DNA from: Verrucomicrobiales bacterium
Lineage (GTDB): Bacteria > Verrucomicrobiota > Verrucomicrobiia > Verrucomicrobiales > DEV007
Direction of reading: 5' to 3'
NCBI GenBank assembly: GCA_024641425.1
Contig: JAHEDC010000002.1
Location: forward strand, 1 to 44,260
DNA: 44,260 nt
Numbering within the stretch: position 1 is the first letter of the stretch; every line of letters begins with the position of its first letter. The notes beneath the pieces are model-generated. The model ran no database searches and was not told the DNA's origin. It was given only the letters and a program-made list of their open reading frames with translations. The translations under genes and the position numbers were made by a program. Positions 7,771 to 37,201 of this stretch are shown piece after piece.

Positions 7771-7862
7771 GGCAGGGGGCGAAGGATTCCTTTCAAAAAG
7801 GTTTATCGATATCATCCTTCGGGTGAAATTGCCATGTGCGAATAGGGGCTAAGAAACGAATC

Positions 7863-7917
7863 CCCTCAAGAGGACGGCGGCAGGCCGGGGCATTCGGGCC
7901 GGGGCCGATCTTGAGGG
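7863..7917 (-). terminator. Long inverted repeat between the MFS and phosphorylase genes, possible terminator
   Basis: CCCTCAAGA (7863-7871) pairs perfectly with TCTTGAGGG (7909-7917). The ~37-nt interior is very GC rich and contains repeated GGCCGGGG, allowing inner pairing. Read on the minus strand it follows the MFS gene stop and is trailed by GGATTCGTTTCTT, a weak T-rich stretch. It may terminate MFS transcription before deoA. Nothing else recognisable was seen in 7771-8051. Confidence 0.4.
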
Positions 7918-8051
7918 CGCCTTCCTCGTTTTCCATGAAATATTTTCTCACGGGCGTGGCCGCTGCGGGTCGTATTGCGCGGCGGAAGGAAGCGATGGTG
8001 GATTCGCGCGATTCTTGGATCGACGCTGCCGGTGCCCTCCCCTCGGGGCAA

Positions 8052-9380
8052 TCAAATCCGCTGTGGATTGTCGGCTTTCAGCGAGGCGAGGAGAAGGATG
8101 GAGGGAATGGTGGCACTGATCCAGAGGGCGGGATTGTAGTCGCCGGCGAGTTTCATGCTGAGCCCGAAGAACAGGGGGCCGATGCCGCTGGCGATGACCA
8201 TGGAGGACATGGCGAAGCCGCTGATGGCGCCGAGCGAGAAGCGTCCGAAAAAGCGGGGCCAGACGATACCCGAGAGGGCGGCGAAGGCCCCACCGCAGAC
8301 TCCGTGTCCTGCGATGAAGACGGGTGGCCCCCACGCGCGGTCGAGGGAGCCGGTGCCGATGACGCCGGCGAGAGCGGCGGTGTTCATCATGAGGAGAAGG
8401 TATTTCAGGCGGGTGTGGGCGCTGGCGAGACCGCAGAAAAGATTGGTGGCCACGCTGGCGGCGGCGATGGGGACGAAGTAGCCGATGATCTGGGACCGGG
8501 GGTGGCCGGAAAGTTCACCGATGGAAACGATGTGGAAAGTGACGGCGGTGCCGAAAAGCGACCAGAACGCGAAGGTGAGATTGAAAGTCCAGAACGACCA
8601 GGTACGAAGGGCTTCGGTGCGGGTGAAATCGCGGTGGGCGATAGCGTCGGGGTTGGTTCGCCGTTTTCCGCGGGCGGAGTTTCCGCCGTCCATGAGAAGG
8701 CCGCATTCCTCGGGATTGTCGCGGACAAGGAGCCATCCAAGGGTGGCCATGACGCCGATGCTGGCGAGGCCGAGGACGATCCAGGCCCCGAACCATTCGA
8801 AGCGGGCGATGAGAAAATCGAGGGCGCGGGGTGCGAAGGAGAACGAAAAAGAGACGGCGATGCCGCTGACGGCGAGCGCGGTGCCGCGGTGGTAGTCGAA
8901 CCACTTCCCGATGGCGTTCCTCCCCGCCATGGTGAGCACGCCCTGGGCGGAGGCGCGGATGAGGTAGAAGCCGAGGGTGATGACTCCGAAGGCGAGGGCG
9001 ACGCGAGGGAGGGCGGGGACGAGACCGGCGAGCCCGTCGAGGAGGCTTCGGGTCGCCGCGAGGTAGAAGAGGACGGAACCGGTGGCGAGGGCGGCGTAGA
9101 CGGTCACGCGCCGCGCGCCGATACGGTCGAAGACGCGCCCCAGGTAAGGGAGGGTGAATCCGCTGAGGACAGTGCCGACACAGTAGGCGCTGCTGAGTTG
9201 AACGCGGCTGAGTCCGAGTTGCTCCATGAGGATGTCGGTGAAGACGCTGAAGCCCATCGTTTGCCCGGGGATGCTGAAAACGACGGCAGCGGTGCCGATG
9301 AAGACGATGATCCAGCCGTAGAAGATCGGGAATCGCGCGGGAGAGAATGGGAAATCGGGCTGCCAGCGTCTTTTGCTCAT
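8052..9380 (-). CDS. MFS transporter, oxalate/formate-antiporter-like (OFA) family
   Basis: The 442-residue integral membrane protein has about 12 hydrophobic segments in two halves separated by a charged loop (about 215-245). The opening FYGWIIVFIGTAAVVFSIPG and the next segment MGFSVFTDILMEQLGLSR are typical of OFA/monocarboxylate-type MFS members. The loop 2-3 motif appears as GRVFDRIGARR. It probably carries a small organic anion across the inner membrane, but the substrate is not readable. It is monocistronic or at most loosely linked to deoA downstream (281-bp gap with an inverted repeat). A 530-codon plus-strand ORF covers the same DNA but has a low-complexity Gly/Glu/Ala product and is a shadow. 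Confidence 0.85.
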   Translation of the reverse strand: MSKRRWQPDFPFSPARFPIFYGWIIVFIGTAAVVFSIPGQTMGFSVFTDILMEQLGLSRVQLSSAYCVGTVLSGFTLPYLGRVFDRIGARRVTVYAALATGSVLFYLAATRSLLDGLAGLVPALPRVALAFGVITLGFYLIRASAQGVLTMAGRNAIGKWFDYHRGTALAVSGIAVSFSFSFAPRALDFLIARFEWFGAWIVLGLASIGVMATLGWLLVRDNPEECGLLMDGGNSARGKRRTNPDAIAHRDFTRTEALRTWSFWTFNLTFAFWSLFGTAVTFHIVSIGELSGHPRSQIIGYFVPIAAASVATNLFCGLASAHTRLKYLLLMMNTAALAGVIGTGSLDRAWGPPVFIAGHGVCGGAFAALSGIVWPRFFGRFSLGAISGFAMSSMVIASGIGPLFFGLSMKLAGDYNPALWISATIPSILLLASLKADNPQRI

Positions 9381-32714: not shown

Positions 32715-34739
32715 ATGCTTGAATATACACGCGATGACGCGGAACGCAGTACCGAGGCGACCCCCCTCTCGGTGAAGGTGGTCGGTATTGGTGGCGCTGG
32801 TGCCAACGTACTCGACCGCATCGCCCTGGAAGGAATGGACGGGGCCGAACTGATCTCGATGAATACCGATGTGCGCGGACTGAGCACCTCGGTCGCGAAT
32901 AGCAAAATCCAACTCGGCCGGACTCTGACGCAGGGCCTCGCCGCCGGTGGTGATCCCGAACTGGGCCAGCAGGCCGCGGAGGAGGCCGAGGCTGAGATCC
33001 GCGCCGCTCTGCAAAACAGCGGAATGGTTTTCATCTGCGCCGGCCTCGGCGGGGGAACCGGTTCCGGTGCGGCACCTTACATCGCTAAGATCGCCCGGGA
33101 GGAAGGGGCATTCGTCGTCGCCTTCGTGACGGTGCCCTTTTCGTTCGAGGGACGTCGCCGCCTCCAGCAGTCCTCCGATTCCCTGCGACAGCTGGAAATC
33201 TATGCGAACGCCCTCGTCACCTTCGACAATGACCGCATGGGCGACCTCGTCCTCCCGAAGGAAGGCATCCAGCAGGCCTTCACGGCCGCCGATCAGATCA
33301 TCAGCCAGAGCGTGCGCGCCGTGACCAGCCTCGTGACCCAGCCCGGTCTCATCCGCATCGGAATGGACGATTTGCTCACCGCCCTGCGGAACCACAATTC
33401 ACGCTGCCTCTTCGGCTTCGGCCAGGCGAAAGGCGAAAACCGCGCCCAGGAAGCCCTCGCCCGTGCCCTCAAGAGCCCGTTGCTCGACAAGGGCCAACTC
33501 CTCAAACACGCCGCCAATGCCATCATTCAGGTAACGGGAGGTGACAGCATGACTCTCTATGAGGTCGAGATCCTCATGAACGAGGTCGGCAAGCACGTTC
33601 GCGACAGCGCCCAGATTCTCTTCGGGGTTTCCGCCGACGCCAAACTCACCGACAGCATTACCGTCACGATCATCAGTTCGGTCCAAGAGGCGCAACTGAA
33701 GCCCCTTCCGGAAGGCGAGGCCGCTCCGGCTCCGGCGGCGAGACCCGCTGCGGCCCCGGCTGCCGCGCCACCACCGACTGGAGGAGGAGGCCCGCAAAGC
33801 CCCGCCGCAGTCGCAAAAAAGTCTGAGGCTCCGGCTCAGGATGAGCCGGAGCGCGCACCCGCCGCGTCCAACCCTCAACCCGCTCCCGGGGGCGCGCCCC
33901 CTCCGCAAGGAAAGGCCGTGCCTCTAGTGGCCAAGGTGGCGGCTCCGGAGCTACCGGCGATCGAGGCCGCACCCGCCGACGAAGCGGTGCCGGAGGCGCC
34001 TCCTCCCGAGCAGGAAACCGAACCGGAGACCGAGCCTGAACTTGAGGTGGTCGAAGTCATTGAGGAGCTTGAGGTTTTCGAGGAACAAAAGATCTCGGAG
34101 CTGGATGTTTTCGTCGATCACGATGAGGACGGATCTCCCTTCGTGGACGAAGGCCCCGAAGACGCGCCGGTCTTTGCGAACCCTATCGCCGAGGCGATGG
34201 GCGGTGACGCCAAAGGGGACGACGAAATCGTGGAGTTGGAGGAATCATCCCTTGAAGACGTCTTCATCGATCCTTCTCCGGACGAAGAGGAAGCCGTTGC
34301 GGTTAGTCCCGAGCCCGAGCCTGAAGTAGCGGCGGCGAAGCCGGAATCCGTCCCGGTTCCGAAGACAAAAGGTGGGCTCTCAAAGTTCACGTCGCGGTTC
34401 CGCGGAAGGCCGAAAGAGAAGACCGGGGATTCGTCCGACGCATCCGAATCCGTCGGAACCGAGATGCCCGAGATGGCGGAACTGCCTGCCAAGGCGGAGT
34501 TGCCGTCGACCCAATTGCCTCCCAAGCGCCGACCGGTGGAGCCCGCTCCGGAGCCCGCTTCATCCGAGCATTTGCCGCCTGTAAAGACTGCGCCAAAGGC
34601 TTCTCCCCTCGCAGCGCAACAGGACGAGCTGATTCCGCGGAAGCCCGTCGCAAGGGGGCGCTTCGAGAAAACAGAACCCACCATCATCGATGGTGAGGAT
34701 CTCGATGTCCCGGCGTTTCTTCGAAAGAAAGGAAAGTAG
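32715..34739 (+). CDS. ftsZ: Tubulin-like division GTPase FtsZ with very long linker and altered T7 loop
   Basis: FtsZ forms the Z-ring. Of 674 residues, the GTPase core is about 15-325: VKVVGIGGAGANVLDRI, NTDVRGL, the tubulin signature GGGTGSGAAP (from residue 112), FSFEGRRRL and the NDR triad. The T7 synergy loop, NxDFxD in E. coli (N207, D209, D212), reads R214-I-G216-M-D-D219, so N207 and D209 appear replaced. Residues ~326-656 are a Pro/Ala- then Glu-rich disordered linker, versus about 50 in E. coli. The conserved C-terminal peptide ends the protein (DLDVPAFLRKKGK). A second, diverged copy of this peptide's coding sequence lies at 35619-35672. Core divergence may be usual for this lineage. 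Confidence 0.93.
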   Translation: MLEYTRDDAERSTEATPLSVKVVGIGGAGANVLDRIALEGMDGAELISMNTDVRGLSTSVANSKIQLGRTLTQGLAAGGDPELGQQAAEEAEAEIRAALQNSGMVFICAGLGGGTGSGAAPYIAKIAREEGAFVVAFVTVPFSFEGRRRLQQSSDSLRQLEIYANALVTFDNDRMGDLVLPKEGIQQAFTAADQIISQSVRAVTSLVTQPGLIRIGMDDLLTALRNHNSRCLFGFGQAKGENRAQEALARALKSPLLDKGQLLKHAANAIIQVTGGDSMTLYEVEILMNEVGKHVRDSAQILFGVSADAKLTDSITVTIISSVQEAQLKPLPEGEAAPAPAARPAAAPAAAPPPTGGGGPQSPAAVAKKSEAPAQDEPERAPAASNPQPAPGGAPPPQGKAVPLVAKVAAPELPAIEAAPADEAVPEAPPPEQETEPETEPELEVVEVIEELEVFEEQKISELDVFVDHDEDGSPFVDEGPEDAPVFANPIAEAMGGDAKGDDEIVELEESSLEDVFIDPSPDEEEAVAVSPEPEPEVAAAKPESVPVPKTKGGLSKFTSRFRGRPKEKTGDSSDASESVGTEMPEMAELPAKAELPSTQLPPKRRPVEPAPEPASSEHLPPVKTAPKASPLAAQQDELIPRKPVARGRFEKTEPTIIDGEDLDVPAFLRKKGK

Positions 34740-34768
34740 CGGAGGCAGGATTTTCGCAGGAAGTCGCT

Positions 34769-34824
34769 TTCAGACGATTCACGGCTCGGCGCGCTCTCAC
34801 TATGAGGTGTCGTGGTCGTCTGAA
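34769..34824. repeat. Imperfect long hairpin downstream of ftsZ
   Basis: TTCAGACGA (34769-34777) pairs perfectly with TCGTCTGAA (34816-34824). After a small bulge CACG pairs with CGTG, giving a 13-bp interrupted stem. There is no T-run after it. It may be a transcript end structure after ftsZ or a remnant of a mobile element border. Confidence 0.4.
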
Positions 34825-34876
34825 GATGTTCAACGGTGTACAAAACTTCCCCGGATAACGGTGGCCGGGATGGGCT

Positions 34877-35142
34877 GTAAGCGTCCCAAAATTCTCCCCC
34901 TTGACTCGGGCGGCCTCGGCTTCCCGTCCCTGCTCTCGGCGGCGATCCTCGATGGGGTAAGCGCGGCAGCCTGTTTGGGCGTCGCGTTGACCGGCAGCCG
35001 TTTGATCGCCTCGGTGAGGGAACTCGGGGGATCGAGGCCCTGCCGCTTGCAGTTCCCGATCAGGGTGTGGAGCAGCGCGTTGTTCGCCCCGGCTTCGGCG
35101 CTCCCGAAGAACAGACTGTTCTTCATTCCGAGCTTGGGGGCC
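34877..35142 (-). mobile_element. Remnant of the C-terminal end of an IS66-like element
   Basis: On the minus strand, coding similarity to the IS66 transposase C-terminus runs from about 35140 to 34915: MKNSLFFGSAEAGANNALL, then NCKRQGLDP and AAALTPSRIAAE. The plus strand has GTAAGCGTCCC starting at 34877, which fits an IS66-family terminal inverted repeat (5'-GTAAGCG). The rest of the element and its other end are missing; similarity stops where the RAYT-like sequence begins. An open frame on this strand runs across unrelated flanking DNA. The family call is from memory of the motif, not a search. Confidence 0.55.
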
Positions 35143-35511
35143 GGATCGCGTTTCTCCCACGTCGTTTCCCGGGTTGCGGGGCGGGCAATCCTTTTTGGAG
35201 ACGCCGAGCGGGAGGTATTCAAGGAAAGTTTTGTCAAGTAGTTGCATTTCAGTGGGTTGCATGCAATCGTCTGGTGCTTCATGGGAAACCACTTCCACGT
35301 GTTGCTGGGTGTTCCGGCCACTGTTTTCGCCCAGAAAAGCCCTTTGGTTCGTGCCATTCAGGAGGAGCCCGTTGAAAGGAGGAGGAGATTGCTGGAGCGT
35401 GGCGTGAATCGGGAAGGGGCTCCTTCGCGTGCGTTCTGTCCCCGTGAGTTCGACGGTCTGCGCGATGGTGGCGACGGGCAGAGAGAATCGGCTGCAACAC
35501 GCTCTCGCTGA
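35143..35511 (+). pseudogene. Decayed RAYT/Y1-type (HUH) transposase with an in-frame stop
   Basis: In one frame the sequence reads SHVVSRVAGRAILFGDAE, then EVFKESFVK, a TAG at 35239-35241, and FMGNHFHVLLGVP. These match the N-terminal half of REP-associated tyrosine transposases, including the HUH motif (histidines at 35290 and 35296). A C-to-T change at 35239 (CAG to TAG) would account for the stop. After about 35490 the expected catalytic tyrosine region is not found in any frame. So it is both interrupted and 3'-truncated, and its 5' end abuts the IS66-like remnant. Confidence 0.6.
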
Positions 35512-35618
35512 CCGTGCCGGCGCGAGGTGGAGGAAACTTCCTGTTTTCGCGGTCATCCGGCCCCGTGATCAGGCGTCCCCTTTTCCTCGCGTGTGCTTCG
35601 AAGAAAGCCGAGTCCGCC

Positions 35619-35672
35619 GTCATCGATGGAGAGGATCTCGACGTCCCGGCCTTTCTCCGGAAAGAGGACAAG
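35619..35672 (+). pseudogene. Second, diverged copy of the FtsZ C-terminal peptide coding sequence (relic)
   Basis: Codons here read VIDGEDLDVPAFLRK, nearly identical to the intact FtsZ end encoded at 34683-34727 (IIDGEDLDVPAFLRK). The DNA differs at seven positions over 15 codons: six are silent third-base changes and one gives I to V. Beyond this the frame diverges from FtsZ, and no GTPase core precedes it. The pattern shows this stretch was under protein-level selection, so it is a leftover of a second ftsZ or of a former ftsZ end, not a fresh duplication. No other gene is recognisable in 35673-35911. Confidence 0.65.
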
Positions 35673-35911
35673 GGCCACCGCGGCCGTTGGCAGGACGCGG
35701 GTCGCCCCGCAGCGCACCGGCGAAGCCGTGTCGCCCGTCAATCCAAGGCCGCGTTTTCCGTTCCGCCGCACCCTCCGGTTCGACATCGAGTGATCCCTCC
35801 TCCCCGTCCCATTCCGAGCCCTCTCCACTTTTGGAAAATCTAGGGTTGCCACCGCGCATGGCTTCCGCCTAAATGTCACACATACGAAACCCCTGCTCTC
35901 TCCATTCATCC

Positions 35912-37201
35912 ATGTCCAGTTCTCCGACTCGTCCCGCCGCGCTGAAGCCTCGCCTCTGCGTCATGATGTTCATCCAGTTCTTCATATGGGGAGTTTGGTA
36001 TGTGCCGATGTGGAATTTCCTTGGTGGCATCGGGGCAACCGACGCGCAGGTTGGCTCTGCCTATGCCGCCACGGGGATCGCCGCGATCATCTCCCCGTTC
36101 CTCGTCGGCATGATAGCCGACCGCTTCTTTCCGACCCAGATCGTCTTCGGGGTGCTTCACCTGCTTGGGGCGATGTTCCTCTATCTTACTTCGAGGGCAC
36201 AGAATTTCGATGATTTCTACCCGATGCTCCTATTGCATCTTGTCTGTTACATGCCGACTCTCGCTCTCGCCAATACCGTGCTCTTCCGGAATTCGGCTTC
36301 ACCCGAGCGCGACGCCCCTCCCATACGAACCTTGGGGACCATTGGATGGATTGCCTCGGGGGTTTTGGTTGGCGGTGGCTTCCTTGTCGCGGGAGATTTT
36401 ACCTGGCAACTTCCCAAATTTCTCGGCGGGCCTGACGCTCCGGCGGCCGCCGTCACGCTTGGCAGTACGGTGTGGCCCTATTACTTCGGTTGCGGGGCTT
36501 CCGTGCTTCTAGGTCTCTATGCTTTTTCGTTGCCCCACACGCCGCCGCAACTCAAAGGGAAGACCGTTTCGGTGGGGGACATTCTCGGGCTTAAGGCTGT
36601 TCGCCTCATGAAGGACCCTTCTTTCGCGGTCTTCATCATCTGTTCTTTGCTCATCTGCATTCCTCTTTCTTTCTATTTTCAGAGCACCAATGGCTTTCTC
36701 GGCCAGATGGGAGTGCAAAATACCGAAGGCGTCATGACGCTCGGACAAGTCTCGGAAATCTTCTTCCTGCTCCTTGTTCCCGTCTTTTTCAGGAAGCTTG
36801 GAGTGAAATGGATGCTCGCGATCGGGATGCTCTTCTGGGTCCTTCGCTACGTGCTTTTCGCCAACGCTACCCCGGAGACCCATTCACTGCTTTATCTGGG
36901 CGTTCTCTTTCACGGGATCTGTTATGACTTCTTCTTTTTCACCGGGCAACTCTATGTGGACAAGCGTGCTCCCGAGGACGTGCGTTCCGCCGCCCAGGGG
37001 TTCATCGCCTTTGTCACGCTGGGCATCGGAATGTTCCTCGGTGGGAAACTCAATGGCTGGTGGAATGGCCGCCAGACGGTTGACGGCGTGAAAGACTGGG
37101 CCGCCATCTGGTGGTTTCCCGCCATCATGTCCGGCCTTGTTCTTGCGGTCTTCCTGGTTCTTTTCAAAGACAAGTCGCGCTCACCGCGTTCCGAAAACTG
37201 A
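35912..37201 (+). CDS. Nucleoside:H+ symporter-like MFS transporter
   Basis: The 429-residue, about 12-span inner-membrane protein opens with MMFIQFFIWGVWYVPMWNFL and includes GMIADRFFPTQ, RTLGTIGWIASG, and later FHGICYDFFFFTGQLYVDK and APEDVRSAAQG. These are typical of the NupG/XapB-type nucleoside symporter family. In PVC and Bacteroidetes genomes many such members sit beside sugar oxidoreductases and may carry other substrates, so nucleoside transport is not certain. I chose the ATG at 35912; an upstream in-frame ATG at 35873 adds 13 residues in a non-conserved stretch. The Gfo/Idh/MocA gene starts 4 bp after its stop, so the two form an operon. Confidence 0.85.
   Translation: MSSSPTRPAALKPRLCVMMFIQFFIWGVWYVPMWNFLGGIGATDAQVGSAYAATGIAAIISPFLVGMIADRFFPTQIVFGVLHLLGAMFLYLTSRAQNFDDFYPMLLLHLVCYMPTLALANTVLFRNSASPERDAPPIRTLGTIGWIASGVLVGGGFLVAGDFTWQLPKFLGGPDAPAAAVTLGSTVWPYYFGCGASVLLGLYAFSLPHTPPQLKGKTVSVGDILGLKAVRLMKDPSFAVFIICSLLICIPLSFYFQSTNGFLGQMGVQNTEGVMTLGQVSEIFFLLLVPVFFRKLGVKWMLAIGMLFWVLRYVLFANATPETHSLLYLGVLFHGICYDFFFFTGQLYVDKRAPEDVRSAAQGFIAFVTLGIGMFLGGKLNGWWNGRQTVDGVKDWAAIWWFPAIMSGLVLAVFLVLFKDKSRSPRSEN

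Follow-up and report, generated by a model that had tools for sequence, protein, structure and literature searches.

The 3′ end (tail) of the division gene ftsZ occurs twice in the stretch of DNA analyzed here (the window, 44,260 nucleotides). The second copy is probably a non-functional leftover ftsZ 3′ end from one additive recombination in the ftsZ tail, with homology-facilitated illegitimate recombination involving DNA of a related strain as the likeliest route. The window forms contig G000:C87 of a metagenome-assembled genome, which totals 6.5 Mb in 721 contigs at 90.6% completeness and 5.48% estimated contamination. The genes ddl, ftsQ, ftsA, and ftsZ make up a division gene cluster, and the locus lies at its end. 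The ftsZ gene (32715..34739, + strand) encodes 674 amino acids with a GTPase domain, FtsZ_C, a long variable linker, and a conserved C-terminal peptide. Its product matches Pfam PF00091 (E=2e-40) and PF12327 (E=5.5e-20), and its best matches are in verrucomicrobial genomes, Verrucomicrobiales MAGs among them.

Copy 1 (34660..34736, + strand) is the functional ftsZ 3′ end, encoding FEKTEPTIIDGEDLDVPAFLRKKGK followed by the stop codon; its homologous block, copy 2 (35595..35672, + strand), is a displaced and frameshifted ftsZ 3′ end with no stop at the position of the ftsZ stop. The repeat of about 78 nt starts at 34660 and 35595 and ends at the last sense codon of ftsZ (34736 and 35672), with both copies on the same strand and 936 nt apart. 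It is the only direct repeat of at least 45 nt in the window, and the local alignment score of the two copies was 89, whereas 300 shuffles reached 42 at most. At its 5′ edge, the homology contains a 1-nt indel that shifts the beginning of copy 2 into another frame. The original prediction had proposed extending the alignment upstream of both copies; when it was extended outward, the homology reached back to 34660 and 35595, and no homology between the flanks was found on either side, so the duplicated unit can be delimited only as far as the tail itself. The sequence 3′ of copy 1 is likewise unrelated to that 3′ of copy 2.

A profile built from the tails of relatives detected copy 2 in a genome-wide search (E=7.1e-9), and exactly two strong tail matches were present in the genome. 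The consensus tail in relatives is RGRFEKTEPTIxDGEDLDVPTFLRKK. By comparison with these relatives, two replacements can be assigned to copy 2 (P to S and T to A), both giving residues found in no relative. The alanine in DVPAF is common to both copies, the relatives shown having S or T at this position, and an alanine-specific DNA pattern gave no match in any other genome of 75. This shared alanine indicates that both copies come from one lineage.

The gene order in relatives reveals what was added. In six of them (G013, G016, G024, G031, G039, and G014), a single-tailed ftsZ is followed directly by MFS and Gfo/Idh genes, with a spacing of roughly 100–140 bp between ftsZ and the MFS gene, which is 38–72% identical to that of the window. 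As these six relatives lack the insert, the window has gained about 0.9 kb and a second tail. The MFS-like transporter gene of the window (35873..37201, + strand; first reliable homology from 35912) is the ancestral downstream neighbour of ftsZ, and it is this gene that copy 2 adjoins. Both marks of a displacement, an ancestral order without the insert and a displaced end beside the ancestral neighbour, were thus found by comparison with six relatives. One option in the original prediction, that copy 2 is a former end of ftsZ, is supported by this position and by the decay of the copy. A sample of roughly 600 genomes, drawn at the levels of order and class, gave a tail match in about 470, and a second strong tail 3′ of ftsZ on the same strand was found only in this window and in genome G148. 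Genome G204 has two tail matches on separate contigs, the second probably from a second strain.

The predicted decayed IS66-like and RAYT-like elements between the copies were both confirmed by Pfam, protein, and DNA matches. The first is a remnant of the C-terminus of an IS66-family transposase (34942..35156, − strand), with a weak match to Pfam PF13817 (E=0.025) and DNA matches at 67–72% in several relatives, e.g., G105 and G011. The second is a RAYT (Y1-type transposase) gene of which only the 5′ part is left (35101..35337, + strand), interrupted by an in-frame stop; full-length RAYTs elsewhere in the genome, at G000:C268 and C447, share 55–61% identity with it (E about 1e-23), and a DNA match covers 35151–35320. 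The two remnants abut almost exactly at 35151–35156, which suggests insertion of one into the other or recombination between them. The stretches 34740–34941, 35340–35594, and 35673–35872 have no assigned homology. A search of relatives with the insert DNA returned nothing beyond the IS66, RAYT, and ftsZ-tail matches and one short marginal match, and no target-site duplication longer than 7 nt was found around the insert.

An open frame runs through copy 2 (35514..35843, + strand), apparently by chance, and is not supported as a gene. Its GC contents by codon position were 0.72/0.57/0.66, whereas ftsA and the genes farther downstream show about 0.6/0.4/0.7; it had no Pfam match, and its matches in relatives were accounted for by their ftsZ tails. 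We therefore rejected the idea that copy 2 is part of a conserved unrelated gene or an FtsZ-tail mimic, as there is neither coding composition nor conservation outside the tail. The original prediction had listed, as evidence against itself, relatives with a single ftsZ and no tail copy together with a copy 2 lying in an unrelated gene; the former is what the six relatives have, whereas no support was found for copy 2 lying within an unrelated conserved gene.

The divergence between the copies was examined for traces of constraint. The original prediction reported that 34683–34727 and 35619–35663 encode nearly the same 15 residues with seven base differences, six of them silent, and our recount agrees exactly. 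Over 34662–34727, with the indel removed, there were 12 nucleotide differences (8 silent and 4 replacement), so the 15-residue stretch was the most silent-rich part. In simulations taking copy 1 as the ancestor and based on few sites, a copy 2 dead from the start gave a mean silent fraction of 0.36–0.38 and a probability of 0.014–0.019 for at least 8 of 12 silent differences; constraint for half the time gave a probability of 0.07–0.14, and under full constraint the observed result was ordinary. The homologous block is short, so such substitution tests are weak. As far as the sequences can tell, the silent excess favours some period of constraint on copy 2. The claim that the silent changes show both copies to have evolved as protein has only moderate support: the observed count is improbable for a never-constrained copy but less so under constraint for half the time, and a second gene is not needed. 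A tail from the working ftsZ of a related strain would supply constraint before displacement without a second gene, as G148 illustrates. Mostly silent divergence of two short copies is by itself no proof of two former genes.

G148 is an independent, fresher case of the same kind of duplication. Here, the last 321 nt of ftsZ are repeated 2 kb downstream (L113, G148:C1:424000-433500), with 13 differences between the copies, 12 of them silent. The homology stops at the stop codon, unrelated sequence follows each copy, and other genomes of the genus group of G148 share neither downstream region. The homology begins 321 nt before the stop in G148 versus 78 nt in the window, and such different joints are expected for illegitimate joints. 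ORFs lie between the G148 copies; one of them is a weak candidate for a PIN domain, with a Pfam match (E=0.08) that falls short of the curated cut-off.

From an ancestral state with about 100 bp between ftsZ and the MFS gene, a single additive recombination in the ftsZ tail would have added DNA next to the MFS gene and left two tails. The likeliest mechanism would be homology-facilitated illegitimate recombination in which the DNA came from a related strain, one joint being formed via homology in ftsZ and the other by chance. Copy 1 would then complete the essential gene as a fresh tail, and the old tail would be displaced, with copy 2 staying beside the MFS gene and losing its frame and stop. 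The IS66 and RAYT elements would have entered or come along and then decayed. The duplication with its limits and its decay, the ancestral gene order, the lack of another ftsZ, and the parallel in G148 are seen directly in the sequences; we infer that one tail is foreign, in what order the events took place, and which of the tails came in. Homology-facilitated illegitimate recombination is documented elsewhere (PMC5361080, PMC3240628). Displacement of 3′ ends has been described in Vibrio T6SS immunity arrays (PMC5361080), and that paper also cites C-terminal displacement in rhs. In these systems, an incoming 3′ end replaces the existing one, which ends up farther downstream as an orphan, as proposed here; they differ from the present case, where a housekeeping division gene is involved, its coding outcome stays the same, and no more than 78 nt of the orphan are left.

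An in-place partial duplication of the ftsZ end, followed by transposon entry between the copies, neutral decay of copy 2, and silent changes in copy 1, is only moderately disfavoured, and we regard it as possible though unlikely. The 936-nt spacing of the repeats on one strand and their common alanine fit such a duplication, as do the frameshift, the replacements, and the missing stop of copy 2. However, the silent excess is hard to reconcile with a copy that was never constrained, the sequences after copy 1 and copy 2 are unrelated, and the 12 of 13 silent differences in G148 fit poorly.

The locus could instead be what remains of an integrative element that inserted site-specifically at the 3′ end of ftsZ, carried a replacement tail, and later lost its body; we consider this improbable. 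The model is the e14 prophage in E. coli icd, where the gene keeps a full 3′ end and a 163-bp copy persists as a pseudogene beyond the insert (PMC6379469). The architecture here fits: one tail completes the gene, a displaced end copy lies at the far side of the insert, and the homology ends at the stop codon. However, e14 has a site-specific integrase and a fixed attachment site, and neither was found here: no integrase was detected in or near the insert, which contained only the IS66 and RAYT remnants, and none was recognized between the G148 copies. No tail was confirmed in viruses, and no viral contig carried one. The 5′ limits of the two repeats, at 78 and 321 nt from the stop, indicate that there was no common attachment site, which also argues against an integrative element.

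The other option in the original prediction was a former second ftsZ, taken here as a full-length gene, that lost its body as the transposons inserted. The silent excess between the copies would suit such a history, but we judge it very improbable. FtsZ and tail searches found no second ftsZ anywhere in the genome (one FtsZ match in total), and no significant homology to an ftsZ GTPase body or linker was found 5′ of copy 2. The prediction had suggested looking for tandem genes in relatives; these have a single tailed ftsZ, and no tandem genes each with a tail were found. Genome G025 has a second FtsZ (L146, G025:C97, about 7834–8754) that is tail-less and 46% identical to the FtsZ core of the window; it lies outside the division cluster, and the 14 kb examined there gave no match to ftsA, ftsQ, or ddl. 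An extra FtsZ copy in G044, on a 3-kb contig, is probably from another strain.

An altered T7 loop had also been put forward as a hint of a two-FtsZ past. The usual T7-loop pattern is NxDxxD, as in E. coli FtsZ, and the loop of the window FtsZ is GLIRIGMDDL (33341–33400). In all relatives examined (L001–L134), NxD is replaced by xIG, giving the pattern xxGxD[DE], in which the first aspartate is lost; this loss may bear on GTP hydrolysis. Because the change is present in all relatives examined, it is a feature of the clade and no trace of a lost partner, so the T7-loop argument fails. A past two-FtsZ system is not supported.

An assembly artefact joining two strains, which a metagenome assembly in 721 contigs with 5.48% contamination might invite, is the least probable account. 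The copies have no exact run in common longer than 11 nt, and within the window every 16-mer of the region occurs only once, leaving no repeat to mislead an assembler. Apart from ftsZ itself, nothing else in the genome matches at more than 74%, and the gene order is native on both sides.

Additive recombination in the ftsZ tail is our preferred reading. In Verrucomicrobium spinosum, FtsZ likewise has a long C-terminal extension, and the division cluster is essential (PMC12283558, PMC1845146); the extension is itself essential and tolerates very few insertions (PMC12283558). The available sections of these papers describe no tail duplication. Given this low tolerance, only rearrangements leaving a full working tail would survive. 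We found nothing in the literature on duplicated ftsZ ends. A speculative and improbable extension is that DNA arriving in Verrucomicrobiales genomes repeatedly lands at the ftsZ 3′ end and brings its own ftsZ tail; if true, insertions beside an essential gene would stay harmless. In summary, the tempting idea of a lost two-FtsZ system gives way to a scar left where part of an essential gene was duplicated, for which G148 offers an independent parallel, and the tail duplication is a real but ordinary genomic scar.
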